IMG/VR virus record: IMGVR_UViG_3300019752_000026 | Location: 1 to 20,222 of that record | Length of the DNA: 20,222 nucleotides | Reading direction: 5' to 3' (one strand) | Origin: a virus | In this document: positions 241 to 20,222 of the stretch, one piece after another | Numbering within the stretch: position 1 is the stretch's first letter | How the letters are laid out: each line of letters opens with the position of its first letter | Translations under genes and position numbers: made by a program | The notes under the pieces: generated by a model | The model's database searches: none | What the model was told of the DNA's origin: nothing | The model's input: only the letters and a program-made list of their open reading frames with translations

Positions 241-3200
241 ATGGCAGATTTAAGAAATCTAGCTCCATACAGACAGGATTATGACCCTGTTAAAGAATAT
301 TATCAGGTTATGTATCAGCCATCAAAGGCTATACAGGCTCGTGAATTGAATAATAGTCAGGCCATTGTTCAGGAACAGATTAATAGATTTGGTCAGAATA
401 TTTTTCAGGACGGTACACTTGTATTAGGTGGTGGTATCAGTACTATCATGAATCAGGATGTAGTTACTGTTAATCTTACACTAGGTTCTGTATACACTGA
501 TATCAGTAACAGGGATGAATTATTTGTCAGGTCTAATACATCTGGTTTGAGAGCAAGAGTAATCAAGACTTTTGATGTTGAAAATACTGATCCAGTAACA
601 CTATTTGTTGAATATGATAATTCGGGTACAGAAGGTCAGACCAGAACATTTTCAGATTCAGAATTTGTTGTGTTCTCTGCTATGGTTGGTGGTAGTGAAC
701 AGGATATTGCTACAGCAACTATTATCACCACAGATGAAGGTACATGGTGTCGTGCACTAGAATCAGTATATTTTATTGATGGTCTGTTTGTAAACAATGC
801 TGAACAGGATTATATCATTAGTAAGTATACTACTGATCCAACTCGGCGTATCGGCTTTGAAGTGGTTCGTGATATTGTAACAGAAGCTGAGGATAACACA
901 CTGTTTTCTAATGCTGCTGGTACAATCAATGAGAATGGTGCAGGCGCACATAGATATCGAATTGATTTGAGACTCACAGGACTAAATGAAGGTCAGGCTG
1001 AACAACCTGACACACCATTCATGGAAATCATTCGTCTTGAAAATGGTATTGTAACCAGAAAGATTGACCAGACACAGTATAGTATCTTAGGTGATACACT
1101 TGCACAACGAACTTTTGAAGAATCTGGCGATTATACAGTAACCCCATTTTCATGTCTTATCAGAGAACATCTGAACGATGGAACCAATGGTGGATATCTC
1201 ACAGCACAGAATGGTGGTCTTGAATCTAAATTCGTGGTTGATGTGAATCAAGGTGTTGGATTCGTAAAAGGGTATCGTGTATCTAATCCAAGTATTGAAC
1301 ATGTAGTTGTTGATAAAGCACGTGATACAGATAGTGCTAACAACACTGTGGTTGCTGCAACATACGGAAACTATATTATCGTCAATAATCTTTTCGGTAT
1401 GCCTGATCTAAACATTGGTAACACCTTTAATCTGCATGATGCAATTATTACAGGTGGGGCTGATACTGGTAATGTGATTGGAACATGTCGTGTACGTAGT
1501 GCACAACGTCATTCTGATACAGAGATTAGATTATATATTTTTGATGTACAGATGAACACTGGCAACACATTCAGTCAGGTGAATGGTATCAGATATACAG
1601 ATGCATCAAATCTATTTGGTGGTGGGGTAGTTGGTTCCAATATTAATGAATCTGCTAATAACAGACTTGTATTTGGTCTTGCTAACACCTCTATACGTTC
1701 TTTAAAAGCAAATGGTATTGACACCTCATATGTGGTTATCAGAGACTTCACACCAACCACAAACAGTTCTGGTATTGCTACAATAACTGTAGGTTCAAAT
1801 GAGTTGTTCAGTACACTCAATAATTTTGAATATCTCATTGCGGTCCGTGGAGCCAGTGAAGGTGAAGTAATTGATGTGAGTGGTAAACTTAGTTTGTCTG
1901 GTACACCAGTCGGAAGAACACTTAATATTAATTTAGGTGTTGGTTTTGAAAGTAAAGAACTGACTGTTATTGCACCTGTTTTAAAACAACAGGCTTTAGA
2001 GCGTACAAAGACAGACACCCTCGAAGTTGAATTCCTTACACTAACTAATGAAAGTGTAAAGGCTTTGGAACATGCTGATGTACGTAGAATCGCTAGTATT
2101 GTAGACACCAACAATGGTACAGTTGTAACAGACAGTTTTGAATTAGACACTGGACAACGTGATAGTTTTTACACGAACGGTAGTATTAGAGTGCGTGGCG
2201 GTAGACCAGTATCTGGATCATATCAGGTTACGTATAATTATTTTGAACATGGTACAGGTGATTATTTTTCGGTAGATAGTTATGACGTGTCATATGAAGA
2301 TATTCCTACATATACAGCTAGTGACGGTGAAATTCTGCAATTAACAGATAGTTTTGATTTTAGGCCTGTAAGAACTGCAAGTGGATTTACAGACGTAGAT
2401 GTTATTAGACCTAATGACACTATTCGTGCTGATGCTGAATATTATTTGCCACGTATTGATAGTGTGTATGTTAGTTCTGATGGTGATTTTGGAGTTGTTA
2501 AGGGTATTAGCTCATTGACCCCATCTGAACCATCTGCACCTAATAACAGTATGGTAATTGCTACATTAGAAATTCCAGCATATACTAAATCTGCATCTGA
2601 TGTTGTTAAAGTTGATATTGATAACCGTAGATATACCATGAGAGATATTGGTAGACTTGACACACGTATCAGCAATCTCGAATACTACACATCTTTGAAT
2701 ACGTTAGAAACAACTGTTAATAACGTAGATGTTATTGATCCAGCTACAGGCAACTCTAGATTTAAAAATGGTATTGCTGCAGATGACTTTAGTGATTATA
2801 TCCTGAGTGATATTAACAGTGCTGAATACAGGGCTACAGTAGACTTTCAAAATCTACTTGTGGTTCCTGAATGGGCTGGCAATGCAGTTGATATGAATTT
2901 TACAAGTGGAACAAGTCACAGGATTCAGAGTGACGTAGCTATGATTGATTATACAGAGCAAGCCAGTGTCGTTCAGCCGTATGCTACACGCACTTCAAAC
3001 ATCAATCCATATGCTGTGTTCACTTGGAATGGAAACGTTGTTCTAGACCCTGCTGTGGACTTCTGGCGGGATGTTAAATTTCTACCGCCTATAATTCAGA
3101 ACAGGACTATCAATAATAGGGGTGGTGTGGTAGAAGAAGGTGTTAGTAGGGTTTTAACAAGTTCGTCTAGAACTCTTGTTGGTGATCGTGATTATGATGT

Positions 3201-5073
3201 ACGCAATACATTTTCAGTCATTCAAACTGAATTAACATCTAATGTACAGACATCTACAACTACAAACGTAGTAAATACTGAAATCATTCCGTTCATGAGA
3301 GAAATTGATATTAATTTTGTTGCAAAAGGATTAAAACCACAGACAAGACTATATCCATTTTTTGCAGATACATTTGTTGGTCCACATTGCAGACCAAATA
3401 CAGGTTCATTTGGAGATAATATCACAACTGATGTCAGTGGCAATGTGAGTGGTGTTTTTAGAGTTCCCGTTACAGATAGTGATAAATTCAGAACAGGAAG
3501 AAATACATTCAGACTCAGTGACAGTAACACTAACAGCTTTCTTGCGACAGAAGTATCCACATCAGCAGAGGCCGAACATGATTCATCTGGTGAACTGAGT
3601 GTAAGTCAGAATACAGTCAATAGTATCACTACACTGGGATTGAGACAGACTGAAAGTGTACAGACAACTATTAGGCGAGTGCAAGACCCCATTGCACAGT
3701 CTTTTCAGGTTGGTACTATTGGTGGCGAATTCCTTTCAAGCGTGGACGTTTATTTTAAAACTAAAAGTGCAAATATACCTGTGACATTAGCATTAAGATA
3801 TGTTGATACTGGATTACCTACTAATATTGATCTACCATTAGGAACTGTTACATTAAATCCAAATCAGGTTAATATCTCAGATGATGCTAGCGTGGCTACA
3901 AAATTCACATTCGATGCACCAGTATATCTGGAACGCAACCGAACTATTGCAATAGTGATGTTAGCCGATACAATTGAATATGAGGTTTATATTGCACAGT
4001 TGGGAGAAGCCAGAATTAATGGTGATGGTGCTGTGAGTAAACAACCCAATTTAGGGAGCTTCTTCACATCTCAGAATCAGGAAACATGGACACCTGAACA
4101 GAATAGAGACCTTATGTTTACCGTCAATAGGGCGGTGTTTAATTCTAATAGTGCTGTAATTGAATATGATTGTGGCGAGAATATGATTGCACCATTTGAG
4201 TTCTTCAATCCAATTGACACTACTAATGCAAGTTCTACTGTCAGTATGCATGTTAGATCACACGGTCTTAAAGTAGGGGATACGATTACAGCATCTGGTT
4301 GTGTAGGTGGCAATGGAATCAATGCAGAGGCTCTTAATAAAGTTCATACCGTAACTGCTGTAACTGATATAGATGTATTCACAGTTGATTTGGGTGTCAA
4401 TGCAAATGCGGATGGGTCAATTGGTGGTGGAAACTGTAGACTCATAGGCAATCTACTTGCAGACTCATTTTCATCTAGTGTAAATACAATTGTTGTTGAA
4501 GGTACTAATATCGTATGGGAATATAGATTGAATAATCAGGGTAGCAGAGTACTTTCAGATTATTCTTCATTCGATGCAAACACTATTGTAAATCTTGTCA
4601 ATACTGGAGTGATTACTGGTCCAAATGATTTAAAAATTAGAGCCACATTAAACAGCAGTAGAAATACGTTATCACCTATGATTGATAACCGAGGATTTAT
4701 ATCTGTATTAACCAGTGGCCGTGTGAGTGCAGATGAAAACAACCCTAAATTCAGTTGGGTTTCGAAGGATATCATTTTCGACAATCCTTGCACAACAGCT
4801 AGAATATGGGTTGGAGCAAATCTTGCTGGTGATACTGATATGAAATTATATTACAAACCATTCTACAGTGCTGATGATGACATCACAGAGGTTGATTGGA
4901 CTGAGTTGTCACCAGTGAATGCTATTATCAATAGTGATTTGCCAGTTGAATACGTTTATAATTTAGAATCTATTGGATCATTTGTAGGATATAAAATTAG
5001 AATTGATTTGTTGACCGATGAACCAATCTATAGACCTAGTTTGAATGATTTCAGAACAGTTGGTTTAGCATAA
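241..5073 (+). CDS. Giant DUF4815-type tail/fibre structural protein, 1610 aa
   Basis: A probable virion protein of the distal tail or fibre network. The N-terminal 60 or so residues (DYDPVKEYYQV, QARELNNSQAIVQEQI, NIFQDGTLVLGG) match my memory of the DUF4815 family in large myoviruses. Around residues 800-850 comes MRDIGRLDTRISNLEYYTSL, then RFKNGIAADDF, another hallmark. From about residue 1147, DPIAQSF is followed by FLSSVDVYF, a segment with QVNISDDASVATKF, and YEVYIAQLGE, typical of the beta-rich C-terminal module. The middle is Asn, Thr, Ser and Gly-rich and looks beta-structured. There is no signal peptide or membrane helix. The start is fixed by GAGG six bases upstream. It lies directly before the neck genes, where T4 has gp10-gp12 and fibritin, so it may replace some of those functions (inference). 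The exact role, baseplate-linked or receptor-binding, cannot be told from sequence. Confidence 0.8.
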   Translation: MADLRNLAPYRQDYDPVKEYYQVMYQPSKAIQARELNNSQAIVQEQINRFGQNIFQDGTLVLGGGISTIMNQDVVTVNLTLGSVYTDISNRDELFVRSNTSGLRARVIKTFDVENTDPVTLFVEYDNSGTEGQTRTFSDSEFVVFSAMVGGSEQDIATATIITTDEGTWCRALESVYFIDGLFVNNAEQDYIISKYTTDPTRRIGFEVVRDIVTEAEDNTLFSNAAGTINENGAGAHRYRIDLRLTGLNEGQAEQPDTPFMEIIRLENGIVTRKIDQTQYSILGDTLAQRTFEESGDYTVTPFSCLIREHLNDGTNGGYLTAQNGGLESKFVVDVNQGVGFVKGYRVSNPSIEHVVVDKARDTDSANNTVVAATYGNYIIVNNLFGMPDLNIGNTFNLHDAIITGGADTGNVIGTCRVRSAQRHSDTEIRLYIFDVQMNTGNTFSQVNGIRYTDASNLFGGGVVGSNINESANNRLVFGLANTSIRSLKANGIDTSYVVIRDFTPTTNSSGIATITVGSNELFSTLNNFEYLIAVRGASEGEVIDVSGKLSLSGTPVGRTLNINLGVGFESKELTVIAPVLKQQALERTKTDTLEVEFLTLTNESVKALEHADVRRIASIVDTNNGTVVTDSFELDTGQRDSFYTNGSIRVRGGRPVSGSYQVTYNYFEHGTGDYFSVDSYDVSYEDIPTYTASDGEILQLTDSFDFRPVRTASGFTDVDVIRPNDTIRADAEYYLPRIDSVYVSSDGDFGVVKGISSLTPSEPSAPNNSMVIATLEIPAYTKSASDVVKVDIDNRRYTMRDIGRLDTRISNLEYYTSLNTLETTVNNVDVIDPATGNSRFKNGIAADDFSDYILSDINSAEYRATVDFQNLLVVPEWAGNAVDMNFTSGTSHRIQSDVAMIDYTEQASVVQPYATRTSNINPYAVFTWNGNVVLDPAVDFWRDVKFLPPIIQNRTINNRGGVVEEGVSRVLTSSSRTLVGDRDYDVRNTFSVIQTELTSNVQTSTTTNVVNTEIIPFMREIDINFVAKGLKPQTRLYPFFADTFVGPHCRPNTGSFGDNITTDVSGNVSGVFRVPVTDSDKFRTGRNTFRLSDSNTNSFLATEVSTSAEAEHDSSGELSVSQNTVNSITTLGLRQTESVQTTIRRVQDPIAQSFQVGTIGGEFLSSVDVYFKTKSANIPVTLALRYVDTGLPTNIDLPLGTVTLNPNQVNISDDASVATKFTFDAPVYLERNRTIAIVMLADTIEYEVYIAQLGEARINGDGAVSKQPNLGSFFTSQNQETWTPEQNRDLMFTVNRAVFNSNSAVIEYDCGENMIAPFEFFNPIDTTNASSTVSMHVRSHGLKVGDTITASGCVGGNGINAEALNKVHTVTAVTDIDVFTVDLGVNANADGSIGGGNCRLIGNLLADSFSSSVNTIVVEGTNIVWEYRLNNQGSRVLSDYSSFDANTIVNLVNTGVITGPNDLKIRATLNSSRNTLSPMIDNRGFISVLTSGRVSADENNPKFSWVSKDIIFDNPCTTARIWVGANLAGDTDMKLYYKPFYSADDDITEVDWTELSPVNAIINSDLPVEYVYNLESIGSFVGYKIRIDLLTDEPIYRPSLNDFRTVGLA

Positions 5074-5114: not shown

Positions 5115-5345
5115 TTATTGCTTGTCAAATTCTTTGTGACATTTTTTGATCGAAGACAGAATTGTCTGTAAACTTGTTGTTTGTAGAGTTCGTACTATAC
5201 TCGAATGTGACCCTTCATCCATTTCGTCATACAACCCCAAATCATGCACCACATTATTTGACAATCTTGCCAATTGCATCCACAACTCTTTATATGTCAT
5301 GGTGTCTTCATTCAGTTTGAAATTCAGCAATTCTTTGTGTGTCAT
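5115..5345 (-). CDS. Hypothetical small protein, 76 aa
   Basis: I do not recognise this protein. It is hydrophilic, probably helical and cytoplasmic, and begins MTHKELLNFKLNEDTMTYKEL. The segments MTHKEL and MTYKEL are near-repeats, so a second in-frame ATG (codon 16, at 5300) could be the true start, with an upstream internal duplication. I keep the first ATG because AAGGG lies 9 nt before it, while the second has no clear site. The C-terminal half (SHSSIVRTLQTTSLQTILSS) is Ser/Thr/Leu-rich. It is the second gene of a two-gene minus-strand island, 21 nt after its upstream neighbour, and ends just before a bidirectional hairpin. Transcription presumably comes from the promoter at 5640-5612. 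Convergent to the late genes, it is likely an early accessory gene. Confidence 0.6.
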   Translation of the reverse strand: MTHKELLNFKLNEDTMTYKELWMQLARLSNNVVHDLGLYDEMDEGSHSSIVRTLQTTSLQTILSSIKKCHKEFDKQ

Positions 5346-5366
5346 TTTATTATACCCTTATCTTGT

Positions 5367-5561
5367 TTATTCATCAACACCATAAAAGCTTTCAATGAAT
5401 TCCTTAACCATTTCTTCGTGCTGGTCTTCATTGAAAATTCTATTGTCAACATCACCAGAACAAATTTGAAGTCCTTCATCTTCATTAAAGACTGTCATGT
5501 TGTTTGCGGTGGTTTCGAATGACAGTGTACCGAATTCTGTTTCAGTTGTGAATGTAGCCAT
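5367..5561 (-). CDS. Hypothetical small acidic protein, 64 aa
   Basis: Unrecognised. The protein starts MATFTTETEFGTLSFETTAN and ends in the acidic stretch EMVKEFIESFYGVDE. It is strongly acidic overall, with no membrane segment and a single Cys in LQICSGDVDN. An ATG four codons upstream (5573) is also in frame. I chose 5561 because GGAG lies 6 nt before it, whereas the upstream ATG has no ribosome binding site and that GGAG would fall inside its coding sequence. It is the first gene of its island, about 45 nt downstream of a strong sigma70-type promoter at 5640-5612. Its regular codon structure, ribosome binding site and promoter support a real gene. A role early in infection is inferred from the promoter type only. 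Confidence 0.65.
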   Translation of the reverse strand: MATFTTETEFGTLSFETTANNMTVFNEDEGLQICSGDVDNRIFNEDQHEEMVKEFIESFYGVDE

Positions 5562-5611
5562 TTCTTTCTCCATTTTGTTAAGTTTTAGGATTTCTCCTTT
5601 CCATGAGTCTA

Positions 5612-7292: not shown

Positions 7293-7682
7293 TTATGGTG
7301 CAATACCAAATTCCCATTCATACGGCTCATCTGGATTTTCATCATTGAAACATGCTGATTCTACAACAGACTGATATTTTGTTCCAGCAAGAATTCGCAG
7401 TGTCTGATCCATAACCCAGTCTTTATGGTGTGCGCCATCAATGTCATTGTATTCAACCAACAGTTCAATAGCTTTCTGAATTCGGTCATCACCTGTAGAT
7501 GTGATGATATCAGTTTTACACATACCGTCACATTTACAACCAGTAGATTCCTCAAGACCGTTCCACATTTCAAGAAAATCCTGCAATACAGTATCTGCAT
7601 ATTCCTTACGTTTAATTGAGGGTGCAGTATCATAAGCATTCAACCACACATCTTTACACATCAATTTCAATTCTGTTTTCAT
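7293..7682 (-). CDS. Phage hypothetical protein with HHKDWVMDQ and C-terminal GIAP motifs, 129 aa
   Basis: Two features recall small uncharacterised phage proteins: AHHKDWVMDQTLRILAG at about residues 84-100 and the C-terminal ending YEWEFGIAP. Function unknown to me. The N-terminus (MKTELKLMCKDVWLNAYDT) looks helical. A CKCDGMCK cluster near residues 49-56 has three close Cys that might bind a metal, but this is speculative. Soluble, acidic, no membrane helix. The start ATG shares its A with the TAA of the upstream gene (TAATG), so the two are translationally coupled. AAAAGGA lies 7 nt upstream. It is transcribed from the promoter at 8139-8111 together with its neighbour and ends at the hairpin shared with gp14. 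Confidence 0.75.
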   Translation of the reverse strand: MKTELKLMCKDVWLNAYDTAPSIKRKEYADTVLQDFLEMWNGLEESTGCKCDGMCKTDIITSTGDDRIQKAIELLVEYNDIDGAHHKDWVMDQTLRILAGTKYQSVVESACFNDENPDEPYEWEFGIAP

Positions 7683-7966
7683 TAGTTATTCCTTTTAAAT
7701 TTTGTTTTGTCAAATGGTCCATCACGATCTTCTTCAAGTCTTACCGTTGGTTGATCCAAATATACAAGTGAATTATAACATGGTTCAATAGAGGATGGAC
7801 ATGTTTTGCAGTACTGAAAATAACAGTCATAACATTCACCAGCATCACTATAATACAATTCAGCACCATTATATTCTGCATCTGGTTTAATTGCGTCCGC
7901 ATGTTTGACATACTCGCCAAATGTGTCTTCAATCATCTTACCGTCAACCAGATTAAATCTTTTCAT
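7682..7966 (-). CDS. Cysteine-rich small protein, possible zinc binding, 94 aa
   Basis: Begins MKRFNLVDGKMIED, a start I associate with small phage hypothetical proteins. Residues 44-63 hold five Cys: CYDCYFQYCKTC, then one more after PSSIEP. The C-x2-C, x4, C-x2-C spacing could bind a metal or form a knuckle (inference). The rest is charged, with a basic C-terminus (DKTKFKRNN), and there is no membrane segment. AAAGGA stands 7 nt before the ATG. It is the first intact gene of the island and overlaps the next start by one base, so both are read as one operon from the promoter at 8139-8111. Function unknown. A role in early takeover or regulation would fit promoter and size but is not shown by the sequence. 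Confidence 0.72.
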   Translation of the reverse strand: MKRFNLVDGKMIEDTFGEYVKHADAIKPDAEYNGAELYYSDAGECYDCYFQYCKTCPSSIEPCYNSLVYLDQPTVRLEEDRDGPFDKTKFKRNN

Positions 7967-15464: not shown

Positions 15465-15839
15465 ATGGAAGAATTATTTGAATCATTTGTGAAAGGTGAT
15501 CACGAAAAAGCTAAGATTAAAATTAAGGAAGCTCTTGATTTGAAGGCTCGTGAACTCGTTGAATCGGGTGAATTATATATTAAAGAACATTTGTCTGAAT
15601 ATGTACTGGATGAGGCTATTCGTAGGAAAGTTAATTTCCTAGGAAAACTTATTCGTAGAAAGAAATGTCCAGAAGGTTATGTTCTTGTAGATGGCAAATG
15701 TAAGAAACAAAAAGCTGACACCAAACGTAAATTACATAGGATTGGTAAAAAGTCTGCTAAGAAACGTAAACGTAAGCAAGCGCGCATTAACATCAGAACC
15801 GATAAAGCCAAGGCTAAACGTAAACAGAAGGGTTTGTAA
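15465..15839 (+). CDS. 67: gp67-like prohead core protein with a basic C-terminal tail, 124 aa
   Basis: T4 gp67 is a small scaffold-core protein processed by gp21. The start MEELFESFVKGDHEKAK and the helix ending in LKARELVESGE match the gp67 N-terminus, and the position between gp20 and gp21 is exactly that of T4 67. An ATG two codons upstream (15459) is too close to AAAGGA (15452-15457); 15465 has 7-nt spacing, so I chose it. T4 gp67 is about 80 aa. Here a C-terminal half follows with CPEGYVLVDGKC (Cys68, Cys79) and a tail in which about 29 of residues 61-124 are Lys or Arg. LDE-A at residues 48-51 fits the gp21 cleavage rule and would release the basic part. No separate gene 68 is seen, so a 67/68 fusion is conceivable. 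The stop overlaps gp21 as TAATG. Confidence 0.75.
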   Translation: MEELFESFVKGDHEKAKIKIKEALDLKARELVESGELYIKEHLSEYVLDEAIRRKVNFLGKLIRRKKCPEGYVLVDGKCKKQKADTKRKLHRIGKKSAKKRKRKQARINIRTDKAKAKRKQKGL

Positions 15840-16474
15840 TGGCACAGTTACTTATAGAATCAACTAATGAAAAAATTGAAGGTTATGCTGATTCTGATGA
15901 TGTTTACAAGATTCGTGGCCCATTCACACGGGCCAACAATGTAAATCGAAATGGTAGACTATATCCACGTTCAATCATGGAAAGGGCTATCAAAAAATAC
16001 ATTGATGAATATCTAAACAAGAATCGTGCCATAGGTGAACTCAATCATCCTGATTATGTTTTACCTAATATTGAACGTGCAGCTATCATGATTAAGAGTC
16101 TCGAATGGAAAGGTGATTCTGTGATTGGTGAAGCTGTTGTTCTAAACACACCACAGGGTAAACAGATACGTGCACTAATGGAAGCTGGCTTCAATATGGG
16201 TGTATCTACCCGTGCAACTGGAAGTCTGAAAGAAAATGGCAAATACTTAGAGGTTCAGGACGACCTTGAATTTCATGCAGTAGATGCTGTTGATATGCCT
16301 AGTGATCAAACTGCATATGTGCAACGGGTGTACGAGAGCGTCCAGTGGGAAAAACACGATGGTGTATGGGTAAAAATGAATGAGGCATCTATTCCAGATG
16401 ATGTATATAAAGCATGTGACGGCAAGACCATCAAAATGCTTGAAAATTATATAGAAAATTTATTCACTAAATAG
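15839..16474 (+). CDS. 21: gp21-like prohead maturation protease
   Basis: A serine protease built into the prohead core. After assembly it digests the scaffold and trims gp23, usually after Glu in (L/I)-x-E followed by a small residue. The 211 aa match T4 gp21 (212 aa). The fold segments are clear: GPFTRANNVNRNGRLYPRSI near residues 27-46; GELNHPDY with the likely catalytic His70; GVSTRATG with the likely Ser123; and HAVDAVDMPSD, where Asp149 or Asp152 would complete the triad. Start ATG 15839 shares its A with the TAA of the gp67-like gene, so translation is coupled. gp22 follows after 16 nt. Late transcription is inherited from the upstream genes, with no promoter box of its own. All expected catalytic residues are present. 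Confidence 0.93.
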   Translation: MAQLLIESTNEKIEGYADSDDVYKIRGPFTRANNVNRNGRLYPRSIMERAIKKYIDEYLNKNRAIGELNHPDYVLPNIERAAIMIKSLEWKGDSVIGEAVVLNTPQGKQIRALMEAGFNMGVSTRATGSLKENGKYLEVQDDLEFHAVDAVDMPSDQTAYVQRVYESVQWEKHDGVWVKMNEASIPDDVYKACDGKTIKMLENYIENLFTK

Positions 16475-16490
16475 TTGAAAGGAAACAATT

Positions 16491-17813
16491 ATGAAAGATA
16501 TTTTTAAAGTTTTTCTTGTCGAGAACATGGGAATTGACGATTCCACAGCAACAAAACTTGATGAACAATTGAGTGTAAAGCTGGAAGAAGAAGTTCAAAC
16601 CCGTGTGTCGGAGATTAAAGAAAAATATGAAGACAAACTTGAAGAACAGGCTGACAAGTATGAATTGCAAATTGCATCTATTGAAGAAAGTTTCGATGAA
16701 CAATCAAATGAGATTTTCACAGAGGCTATCAATGAATGGGCTTTAGAAAATAAAGCTGCACTTGATTCTCAGATTAAAGTCAATATTGCTGAAAATCTTG
16801 TACAGTCCATCATTGGAACACTCCATGAAAATCATATTCATTTCAATGATGAAGAATTTTCACCAGAACTCATGGTTAATGAAGACCTCGTAGTTGAAAA
16901 TGCTGATTTGAAAGCAGAACTTAATTCGTATCGAATTTCTGAACAGATTGATCAACTTGTGGAAACACACGGTCTGGACGAACAACTGAAATCAAAATTA
17001 TTTTTAATGTGTGAGAATGTAGAGACTGACAAACTAAACGAATATATCGAAGACTCTTGTAAATCCCTCATGGAAGAATGTGGTAAGGATCGCATGAAAG
17101 CTATGTCTGATTTTGGTGTCAAGATGTATGAAATGGAGAAACGTATGAAAGACGGAAAAATGTCTGATAAAGATATGAAAGAAATGAAAGATATGATGAA
17201 AGAAATGAAAGGTATGATGAAAGAAATGGGATATAAAAAGAAAATGAATGAATCTACTGAACTCAATGAAATGGGTGGTTCAACAGACACATCTATGTAT
17301 GCTGACATGGTACGTAAAATGTATGGAATGGAAGACCTTAAACGTGGTATCGCCAAAAAGTATAATATGGACGATGAAATGATTGGTGAAATGATTGGCG
17401 ACATGATGGGTAAAATGCATGAGATGGGATATATCAAAGAAGATATCAATGAAGAATGTGATTATAAGATGAAAATGAAAGAAATGAAAAAGATGATGGA
17501 TGAAATGGATATGAATGATCCAAAATCCATGAAAGCTCTTGATGATATCTATAACAAAATGAATAAAGCCGCTAAAGATATGGGTGACGGTGGAAAACAG
17601 TCCATGAATGAAAAGGATATGGACGATAAAGATATGGACGATAAGAAAGACGACAAGAAGATGGATGAAAAGAAAATGGATTCTGAATCTGATGAAATGA
17701 AAGATGATAAGGAAATGGATGATAAAATGGAAAAGAAAGATAAGAAGAAAATGAATGAATCCGTAGAAACCGTAGAACCAACTGGAACAGCTGCATATGT
17801 AGCTAACTGGTAA
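16491..17813 (+). CDS. 22: gp22-like prohead scaffold (core) protein with a Met-rich extension, 440 aa
   Basis: The main internal scaffold on which gp23 assembles; it is later degraded by gp21. Residues 1-150 follow the gp22 pattern: MKDIFKVFLVENMGIDDSTA, long charged helices (EEEVQTRVSEIKEKYEDKLE), then EWALENKAALDSQIKVNIAE and LVQSIIGTLHENHI. Residues 150-200 (QLVETHGLDEQLKSKLFLMC) also fit. T4 gp22 has 269 aa. The extra length lies in about 202-421, which I count as holding 46 Met, together with very many Lys, Asp and Glu, including MKEMKDMMKEMKGMMKEMGY and, at 375-396, repeated K-D-M-D-D units. A better-ordered segment, YADMVRKMYGMEDLKRGIAK, lies within it. The C-terminus TGTAAYVANW recalls that of other scaffolds. 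AAAGGA marks the start. Confidence 0.88.
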   Translation: MKDIFKVFLVENMGIDDSTATKLDEQLSVKLEEEVQTRVSEIKEKYEDKLEEQADKYELQIASIEESFDEQSNEIFTEAINEWALENKAALDSQIKVNIAENLVQSIIGTLHENHIHFNDEEFSPELMVNEDLVVENADLKAELNSYRISEQIDQLVETHGLDEQLKSKLFLMCENVETDKLNEYIEDSCKSLMEECGKDRMKAMSDFGVKMYEMEKRMKDGKMSDKDMKEMKDMMKEMKGMMKEMGYKKKMNESTELNEMGGSTDTSMYADMVRKMYGMEDLKRGIAKKYNMDDEMIGEMIGDMMGKMHEMGYIKEDINEECDYKMKMKEMKKMMDEMDMNDPKSMKALDDIYNKMNKAAKDMGDGGKQSMNEKDMDDKDMDDKKDDKKMDEKKMDSESDEMKDDKEMDDKMEKKDKKKMNESVETVEPTGTAAYVANW

Positions 17814-17879: not shown

Positions 17880-19331
17880 ATGAAACTTAACGAAGAAATG
17901 AAGCAAGGTCTTGAACAGGCCGATAAGCTTTCCCCACTTACCGAGAAATGGAAGCCTGTACTTGATGCTACTCCAAAATCTCGTTTTGTAATGACTAAAG
18001 ACGACATGGTTGCACGTATTCTTGAAAATCAGGAAGATTGGAATAAAAAGAACGCTGGTCGTATTAAAATTGAAGAATCCTCTGTACCTAACATGCAGAT
18101 TGGTACATCCACTGGTGATGGTAACGGTATTAATACAGGTGCAGTTCGCACATTTTCACCAATTCTTATCAAGATGGCTAGACGTGTTGTTCCTAACCTC
18201 GTAGCAATGGACTTCTTCGGCGTTCAGCCAATGAGTGGTCCTGATGGTCAGATTTTTGCACTGCGTGCACGTTACGAAGATGACAGTACAACTGGCATTA
18301 GTTTTGCAGATAATGAAGCTCTTCATAATGAAGCTCTTTCTGGATTTTCTGGTGACGGCACTGCACAGACTGGCGATCCATCAATGTTTCCACAGGGGCA
18401 TCTTCGTGACCGTCCTAGCATGGAAGAACCAGCAGCTGCACCAGCATATGGTCAGGGTATGACTTCTGGCACTGCACAGCTTTTAGGTTCTACTAATAGC
18501 TGGGCTAAAATGGGTATGACCGTAGAGAAATCTGGCGTATCAGCTCGTTCCCGTGGACTGTTCACAGATTACAGCCACGAACTCCGTCAGGATATGATGG
18601 CTGTACATGGTGAAGACGTTGACATGATTCTTGCTGATATCCTCAGTACTGAAATTCAGGTTGAAATGAACCGTGAATTTATTCGCCTTATGAACCTTAG
18701 TGCACAGTATGGACGACAGGGTACAGCATATCAGTGGAATACTGGTACATCTTCTTATGATCAGGTTCAGCGTGACGGTGTATATAATATCACACTTGAT
18801 ACAGATGGTCGTTGGTCCGAGGAACGTTGGAAGCACATGCTTTTCCGCCTCGAACAGGAAGCAAACGATATTGCTAAGTCAACTAGACGTGGTAAAGGTA
18901 ACCGTGTACTGGTATCCTCTAATGTTGCATCTGCTCTTATGGTTGCTGGCATCATTGATTTTGCACCAGCATTGCAGCAGCACATCGGTCTGAATCCAGA
19001 TGACGCAACTGGTCGTACATATCTCGGTAATCTCGCTAACGGTATGATGGTTTATGTTGACCCATATGCTGTAGAAGATTACATGACTGTAGCATTTAAA
19101 GGCCAGAATGAACTTGACGCAGGTATCTTCTTCTGTCCATACACTCCACTGGAAATGTATCGTGCAGTTGGCGAAGATTCCATGAATGCACGTATGGCGT
19201 TTAAAACACGTTATGGATTGGTTGCCAACCCATACGAAATTAAAACAGCAGCTGGTGCAGATCGTACAGGTAAGGGTCTTGGCGCACAGGAGAATTCGTA
19301 CTTCAGGAAAACGCTCGTGGGCAACCTCTAG
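17880..19331 (+). CDS. 23: gp23-like major capsid protein, 483 aa
   Basis: The HK97-fold protein forming the capsid lattice. Diagnostic segments are NTGAVRTFSPILIKMARRVV near residue 85, ADNEALHNEALSGFSGDG, the Pro-rich EEPAAAPAYG, WAKMGMTVEKSGVSARSRGL near 205, TDYSHELRQDMMAVHGEDVD, and the C-terminal PYTPLEMYRAVGEDSMNARM followed by FKTRYGLVANPY. T4 gp23 is 521 aa. RIKIEE/SSVP, with the break after Glu66, fits the gp21 site and lies almost exactly where T4 gp23 is cut (after residue 65), giving a mature protein starting near Ser67. The gene has its own late promoter and a strong terminator. C-ending codons are frequent compared with neighbouring genes, consistent with high expression. Complete and certain. 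Confidence 0.97.
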   Translation: MKLNEEMKQGLEQADKLSPLTEKWKPVLDATPKSRFVMTKDDMVARILENQEDWNKKNAGRIKIEESSVPNMQIGTSTGDGNGINTGAVRTFSPILIKMARRVVPNLVAMDFFGVQPMSGPDGQIFALRARYEDDSTTGISFADNEALHNEALSGFSGDGTAQTGDPSMFPQGHLRDRPSMEEPAAAPAYGQGMTSGTAQLLGSTNSWAKMGMTVEKSGVSARSRGLFTDYSHELRQDMMAVHGEDVDMILADILSTEIQVEMNREFIRLMNLSAQYGRQGTAYQWNTGTSSYDQVQRDGVYNITLDTDGRWSEERWKHMLFRLEQEANDIAKSTRRGKGNRVLVSSNVASALMVAGIIDFAPALQQHIGLNPDDATGRTYLGNLANGMMVYVDPYAVEDYMTVAFKGQNELDAGIFFCPYTPLEMYRAVGEDSMNARMAFKTRYGLVANPYEIKTAAGADRTGKGLGAQENSYFRKTLVGNL

Positions 19332-19520: not shown

Positions 19521-19784
19521 TTACAATCCGTACATACCCACAACCCATTCATGAACAACGTCATTGTCATAGTTATAGTAGTCTTCTAGCAAGTCTAACA
19601 CACTGTCCAAGAATCTCGGATTTACATATTCATCATAATCATTTTTAGCATGACGTTCAAATGATTCAATGATATCTTTTGATGGACCTTGTTTCACATC
19701 AACCATTACGAACTTATCGTGATTGTTGATGATCCATTCAATAGCTTCATTACTGTCCATTTGCATCAAGTCTTTTAATTGCAT
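19521..19784 (-). CDS. Hypothetical acidic protein, 87 aa
   Basis: I do not recognise a family. The protein starts MQLKDLMQMDSNEAIEWIIN, continues KFVMVDVKQGPSKDIIESF and ends with an acidic, aromatic helix region (DSVLDLLEDYYNYDNDVVHE) and VVGMYGL. Hydrophilic, probably cytoplasmic and mostly helical. The frame is open further upstream, to an ATG at 19883, but that part overlaps the preceding gene and looks non-coding. I chose the ATG at 19784, two bases after the neighbour's stop, which implies translational coupling in one operon. The ribosome binding site is weak (GTAG inside the neighbour's last codons). The gene ends at a strong minus-strand terminator. It converges on gp23, like the other small minus-strand genes converge on their structural neighbours, and no function can be inferred from sequence. 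Confidence 0.68.
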   Translation of the reverse strand: MQLKDLMQMDSNEAIEWIINNHDKFVMVDVKQGPSKDIIESFERHAKNDYDEYVNPRFLDSVLDLLEDYYNYDNDVVHEWVVGMYGL

Positions 19785-19786
19785 AT

Positions 19787-20222
19787 CTACACCAATGTAT
19801 ATGTTTGTTTCACATATCTTGTATATGCAGATGAACTCTTTTTGCCAGTTGCATAGATTTTGAATGCTGTTGCACCTTTCCAACTTCCAAAATCATTTGA
19901 TTCCAGTCTGTCCATAATCCATTCGTCAATTTTTGATTTTAAATCATCTTTATCCAGTGCGAACATTTTTGTTGATGTGTCATATCTAGAACCATTACGA
20001 TCAAAAATAATTCTCACATCATAATCTTCACCACGCACACGATCAAAGACCATTGCTTTCAATTTGTCACCTTTAATGCCCTGTATTTTCAGAAATTCTT
20101 TGAAGACATGTTCTGTATTGTCAATAAAAATGTTATAGATACTTGGTCCCAACTCTTCAATACTACGAGAATGAATGACTTTGATGTCAACATTCGCATA
20201 CCCAAAATCTTTACATATACCC
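19787..20222 (-). CDS. Hypothetical protein, partial at right edge (144 residues visible)
   Basis: The frame is open from the window edge (about 20221) to TAG at 19789-19787, so the 5' end lies outside. A TTG at 20152 could be taken as a start, but the frame upstream of it looks equally coding (CKDFGYANVDIKVIHSRSIE), so I treat the gene as cut by the edge. The visible part holds EELGPSIYNIFIDNTEHVFK, a basic segment around GIKGDKLKAMVFDRVRGEDY, VRIIFDRNGSRYDTSTKMFA, and a C-terminus with Ser/Tyr/Lys (GKKSSSAYTRYVKQTYTLV). Alternating strands and helices suggest a folded alpha/beta domain. I do not recognise the family. It is followed after 2 nt by the 87-aa gene, with a shared terminator, so the two form one operon whose promoter is beyond the window. 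Confidence 0.72.
   Translation of the reverse strand, partial: GICKDFGYANVDIKVIHSRSIEELGPSIYNIFIDNTEHVFKEFLKIQGIKGDKLKAMVFDRVRGEDYDVRIIFDRNGSRYDTSTKMFALDKDDLKSKIDEWIMDRLESNDFGSWKGATAFKIYATGKKSSSAYTRYVKQTYTLV

Follow-up and report, generated by a model that had tools for sequence, protein, structure and literature searches.

A methionine-rich insert in the linker of a T4-type gp22 scaffold protein

Why should the prohead scaffold protein of a T4-like virus carry a long stretch in which about every fifth residue is methionine? The window, i.e. the whole 20,222-nucleotide stretch of DNA that we analysed, is an IMG/VR virus record (IMGVR_UViG_3300019752_000026). The scaffold gene and its two neighbors are as follows:

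15839..16474, plus strand: gp21-like prohead protease, Peptidase_S77 (Pfam 3.2e-36; phrog_207 3.5e-60)
16491..17813, plus strand: gp22-like prohead core/scaffold protein, 440 aa (Pfam PF25623 T4_CASP, phrog_237 and gene order)
17880..19331, plus strand: gp23-like major capsid protein (Pfam Gp23 1.2e-116; tblastn; tree)

The gp22 ORF starts with ATG and its frame is unbroken. Its product matched PF25623 at 4.7e-8 (33.3 bits, above the cut-off of 27) and phrog_237, head scaffolding protein, at 1.3e-9, and the gene is flanked by gp21 and gp23 in the order gp20, gp67-like, gp21, gp22, gp23. These matches uphold the original prediction that the ORF encodes gp22; judged by its sequence, the protein is a genuine T4-type scaffold, and the virus is T4-like and infects bacteria. 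The gp21-like protease is expected to be the enzyme that cleaves gp22. An antisense ORF of 165 codons (16952-17449, minus strand) overlaps gp22 and is probably a by-product of gp22 composition. Elsewhere in the window, a 1610-aa ORF at 241-5073 matched DUF4815 (1.6e-57) and is Met-poor (1.1%), and small minus-strand ORFs (5115-5573, 7293-7966 and 19521-20152) sit between plus-strand late structural genes; there was no Pfam match for 7293-7682 or 19521-19883, and no PHROGs match for 5115-5345.

Residues 202-421 of gp22 had been described as holding about 46 Met, roughly one in five, and as consisting mostly of Lys, Asp, Glu and Met. Our count gave exactly 46 Met in 220 residues (20.9%), together with 47 Lys, 36 Asp and 23 Glu, and the four residues make up 69% of the stretch, in which MKEM, MMKEM and KDMDDKDMDDKK all occur. 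The interval first assigned to it, 17091-17760, is correct to within about 3 bases, 17091 being codon 201. Only 5 Met (2.5%) are found in residues 1-201. Within the insert the Met content peaks at 24 per 100 residues, and the remaining long proteins of the window contain 0.4-5.4% Met, with at most 9 per 100 residues. Leu, Ile, Val and Phe together account for 27% of the N-domain but 5% of the insert. With Met included the share stays similar, at 30% versus 26%; Met thus appears to replace the other hydrophobic residues. The helix pattern in the spacing of Met, with one Met four residues from the next, is only modest (p about 0.05).

Alignment of gp22 with its relatives, together with its composition and the AlphaFold models, gave the following anatomy:

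16491..17075, plus strand: conserved N-domain, helical, residues 1-195 up to LME195 (alignments; AlphaFold helices)
17076..17759, plus strand: linker insert rich in Met, residues 196-423, 228 aa (composition; linkers of relatives tabulated and compared)
17277..17453, plus strand: middle Met helices, residues 263-321 (AlphaFold; sub-cut-off DUF2551 match)
17601..17753, plus strand: Lys/Asp/Glu/Met run, residues 371-421 (composition; predicted mostly disordered)
17754..17813, plus strand: site MNE423|S, followed by the conserved tail SVETVEPTGTAAYVANW at the C-terminus (alignments with relatives)

The relatives share one plan: a helical N-domain, an LVE/IVE/LAE site, a linker, a [L/V/I]xE site mostly followed by Ser, and a tail of roughly 11-26 residues that often has AxYLxxL at its end. 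LME195 aligns with the first of these sites. MNE423|S and the tail align with INES, VNES or LNES ... AxYLxxL, so that Met sits where relatives have Ile, Leu or Val. By their sequence, LME195 and MNE423 are conserved sites resembling prohead-protease sites. The stretch had been called an extension of the scaffold. It is real and is absent from the relatives recovered, but it is an insertion upstream of the conserved tail (residues 424-440) and not a terminal extension. With anchors picked by eye, the linker measures 228 aa here against 28-128 aa in 12 relatives, and its Met content is 20% against 0-1%. Its charged, Met-rich composition is likewise unusual only in part: linkers of relatives are often Lys/Asp/Glu-rich (in Ackermannviridae the charged fraction often exceeds 60%), yet short and Met-poor, so the charge is ordinary. 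Residues 371-421 are the part of the insert closest in character to these charged linkers. On this comparison of sequences, the length and the Met content of the linker are new, and the scaffold type and the charge were already known.

Because tblastn with gp22 matched nothing in 50,697 phage records, the relatives were reached through gp23; scanning IMG/VR with gp22 or gp21 found nothing either. The resulting set comprises about 90 ORFs directly upstream of gp23, i.e. in the gp22 position, some of them cut by contig ends or near duplicates. Met makes up 0.6-4.7% of their residues and never exceeds 12 per 100 residues, versus 24 here, and none of them has a Met-rich stretch like that of the window. 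The stretch is thus absent, as had been proposed for T4 gp22, from these ORFs and from the gp22 of RB69 and phiAS5, our comparators for the T4 type, and the comparison of gp22 length and Met content refutes the idea that every relative bears an identical extension. For gp23 the best relative is that of Pseudomonas phage Cygsa01 (58%, tblastn). The gp23 tree places the window and Cygsa01 as sisters (support 99/98), within a nine-member clade with Ackermannviridae (support 100/100). As the other eight gp22s of this clade contain 1-2% Met, the Met-rich state is, as sampled, private to this branch. Scans of IMG/VR by capsid, portal and terminase gave no closer relative, the best terminase relative being no nearer than 42%, and a capsid scan of bacterial genomes found none. 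Searches with degenerate DNA patterns for Met heptads returned 0 matches and then 3, none in a scaffold, and none of the papers in our literature search describes a phage scaffold rich in methionine. In two loci (L089:6396-7337 and L090:7825-8766) the gp22-position ORF opens with CPDCDSSTMELKEDVHVCPECQ, a sequence similar to a zinc ribbon; for a scaffold protein this seems unusual.

A stretch of this kind in one virus record, without a close relative, could come from misassembly of the metagenomic contig. The 660 bases stay in frame, however, contain no exact repeat of at least 18 bases, are followed in frame by the conserved tail and have codon ratios that match the phage background, and we regard an assembly artefact as very unlikely, to the point of being negligible. 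The coding signature is that of a mature gene: of the ATG codons in the stretch, 46 are in the coding frame and 16 and 1 in the other two, the AAA:AAG ratio is 0.70:0.30 in the insert versus 0.72:0.28 in the rest of the phage, and the GAT:GAC ratio is 0.69:0.31 versus 0.72:0.28. It had also been suggested that the repeats expand and contract by slippage. The clearest array, and the only one reported in the insert by Tandem Repeats Finder, has the following position:

17175..17228, plus strand: 21-base tandem array (2.6 copies, 96%, 54 bases)

Its 21-base unit corresponds to one heptad with Met at heptad positions (MKEMKDM/MKEMKGM). With this single 54-base array, no long exact repeat and Lys and Asp codon ratios at background, recent slippage is unsupported. 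Given these background synonymous ratios, the insert looks like old coding sequence rather than a product of fresh expansion. The chief rival to a functional reading, namely that a tolerant linker grew by old duplications and drift and that Met has no specific role, fits part of these data, since linker length and composition vary among relatives (28-128 aa) and short degenerate repeats persist. It fits less well with a hydrophobic fraction that is retained while its identity moves to Met, with a reading frame free of stops, and with synonymous ratios that speak against fresh expansion. We consider such near-neutral growth possible, though on balance doubtful.

The suggestion that Met side chains lie on long helices agrees with the AlphaFold models, which predict Met-bearing helices in the insert. 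For the full protein (11-row alignment) the mean pLDDT was 64 and the pTM low, at 0.21. The N-domain is predicted as a long helical core-forming domain, with helices at 17-113 and 131-220 (pLDDT mostly 60-88). Predicted insert helices lie at 202-220 and 226-245, with three in 268-311 and two in 320-364 (pLDDT mostly 60-83), and after about residue 366 the model is mostly coil of low confidence. Segment 259-330 alone, modeled from a single sequence, gave two long helices in a helical hairpin (pLDDT 79). These models predict helix, not assembly. A DUF2551 identity was rejected at 17.3 bits, below the curated cut-off of 23.4, and a winged helix for the DUF2551-like segment was dismissed in view of the helical hairpin that AlphaFold gives for that segment alone. 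The NCBIfam search gave no match, the sequence search for solved structures found no relative of gp22, and the Foldseek matches were meaningless (E at least 2.7). A Met-rich low-complexity composition also recalls yeast Pbp1 (PMC8394241), and by analogy Met contacts might drive a labile core that oxidation loosens, as in a redox or condensate-type domain. About half of the insert residues are charged, however, and much of it is predicted to be helical, which makes such a domain highly improbable.

Another source of Met could be the cyanophage-like gp22s, many of which have, in an N-terminal extension, the conserved module TKAGMINAMYxKMxGMKKEDLQ, about 22 residues long; we found it in 34 relatives (L014:3098-3163, L016, L069 and 31 other loci). 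In the region of residues 264-280 the window sequence STDTSMYADMVRKMYGM is similar to STKGSMITAMVHKMQGM of L014, and a short profile of the module scored it above 99.5% of composition-matched shuffles (p = 0.005). A wider profile reached only p = 0.03 against shuffles, pairwise scores gave p = 0.06-0.11, and the module sits at the opposite end of gp22. A transferred copy is therefore quite unlikely, and we do not claim homology of residues 264-280 to the module.

T4 gp22 is the prohead scaffold, which is broken down into small peptides and removed before packaging (PMC9958956). The T4 protease gp21 cuts after L/I-x-E and the phiKZ prohead protease after S/A-x-E (PMC9026906), from which it follows that the P3 preference varies between phages (PMC9026906, PMC9958956). 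The gp22 of the window contains 18 putative [LI]xE sites, or 31 if [LIM]xE is counted. Of the 23 Glu in the insert, 14 are preceded at P3 by L/I/M, where 25% would be expected (p = 0.0003), and in 10 of those 14 the residue is Met (p = 0.012). A link of the Met-rich stretch to proteolysis, raised in the original prediction, is thus plausible. In 80 non-redundant relatives, which are not independent of one another, the P3 position before Glu holds Leu 2.02x, Ile 2.05x, Val 1.52x and Met 1.37x over expectation, compared with 1.17x, 1.53x, 1.17x and 1.11x in 206 control proteins of the same loci. LxE and IxE are thus about twofold over expectation in these gp22-position ORFs, above the other proteins of their loci, and may serve as a signature of prohead-protease substrates at the sequence level. 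Met two before Asp is enriched in the insert as well (13 observed versus 7.5 expected), so the M-x-acid pattern in part reflects the general makeup of the insert sequence, and our literature search found no documentation of Met at P3 for gp21-type proteases. If MxE were cut, the largest fragment would be at most 40 residues; if L/IxE alone were cut, the last 119 residues would form a single fragment, which is within the range of relatives. Cleavage at MNE423 together with either LME195 or MNE254 might instead free a Met-rich internal protein that is kept in the head and may be ejected into the host. Conserved protease-like sites do lie on either side, and T4 retains some cleaved core products, gp22*, IPIII and Alt (PMC9026906). 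The many internal [L/I/M]xE motifs would nevertheless destroy such a piece, which moreover is of low complexity and has no recognised domain, and embedded cargo of this kind is unlikely.

We favor, with moderate confidence, the reading that the gp22 linker was enlarged in this lineage as extra disposable core mass, cut up at head maturation. The variable linker that joins the core-forming helical domain to the short tail at the C-terminus would have grown into several predicted helices, in which Met replaces Leu, Ile and Val, plus a disordered charged run. In the prohead core the insert would provide additional mass, together with helix-helix contacts that are weak and malleable. Activated gp21 would then reduce the insert to short peptides by cleavage at many [L/I/M]xE sites, and the peptides, by analogy with T4 gp22, might exit the head before packaging. 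That Met takes two roles in place of Leu, Ile and Val, namely soft packing in an enlarged scaffold core and P3 of M-x-E sites, is a tentative proposal, and a rather improbable one; if true, a single residue would serve both the assembly and the programmed destruction of a scaffold. The building and clearing of T4-type cores are still to be structurally resolved (PMC9958956). The gp22 linker evidently tolerates an eightfold range of lengths, from 28 to 228 residues, and in this gp22, with its private linker full of Met, nature has set up a test of two questions: does the volume of the core determine head size, and will the protease accept M-x-E sites?

Among known systems, yeast Pbp1/ataxin-2 resembles the window gp22 in having Met-rich low-complexity sequence in a self-associating protein, but it is eukaryotic and unrelated, and the likeness is one of composition alone. 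Cyanophage-like gp22s (Kyanoviridae and their IMG/VR kin) have the same core domain as the window protein; unlike the insert, their module is at the N-terminal end and they reach at most 12 Met per 100 residues. T4-like gp22 (T4_CASP; RB69, phiAS5) shares with the window protein the gene order, the helical N-domain, the short conserved C-terminal tail and the protease-like sites either side of the linker. A Met-rich region is missing from the gp22s of RB69 (270 aa) and phiAS5 (263 aa), whereas the linker of the window protein is 228 aa with 20% Met. Ackermannviridae (Kuttervirus) and Cygsa01 are the nearest relatives by capsid protein (about 49-58%), and many of their gp22s have, like that of the window, Lys/Asp/Glu-rich linkers and a [L/V/I]xES site; unlike it, they make do with linkers of about 35-61 aa and 0% Met.
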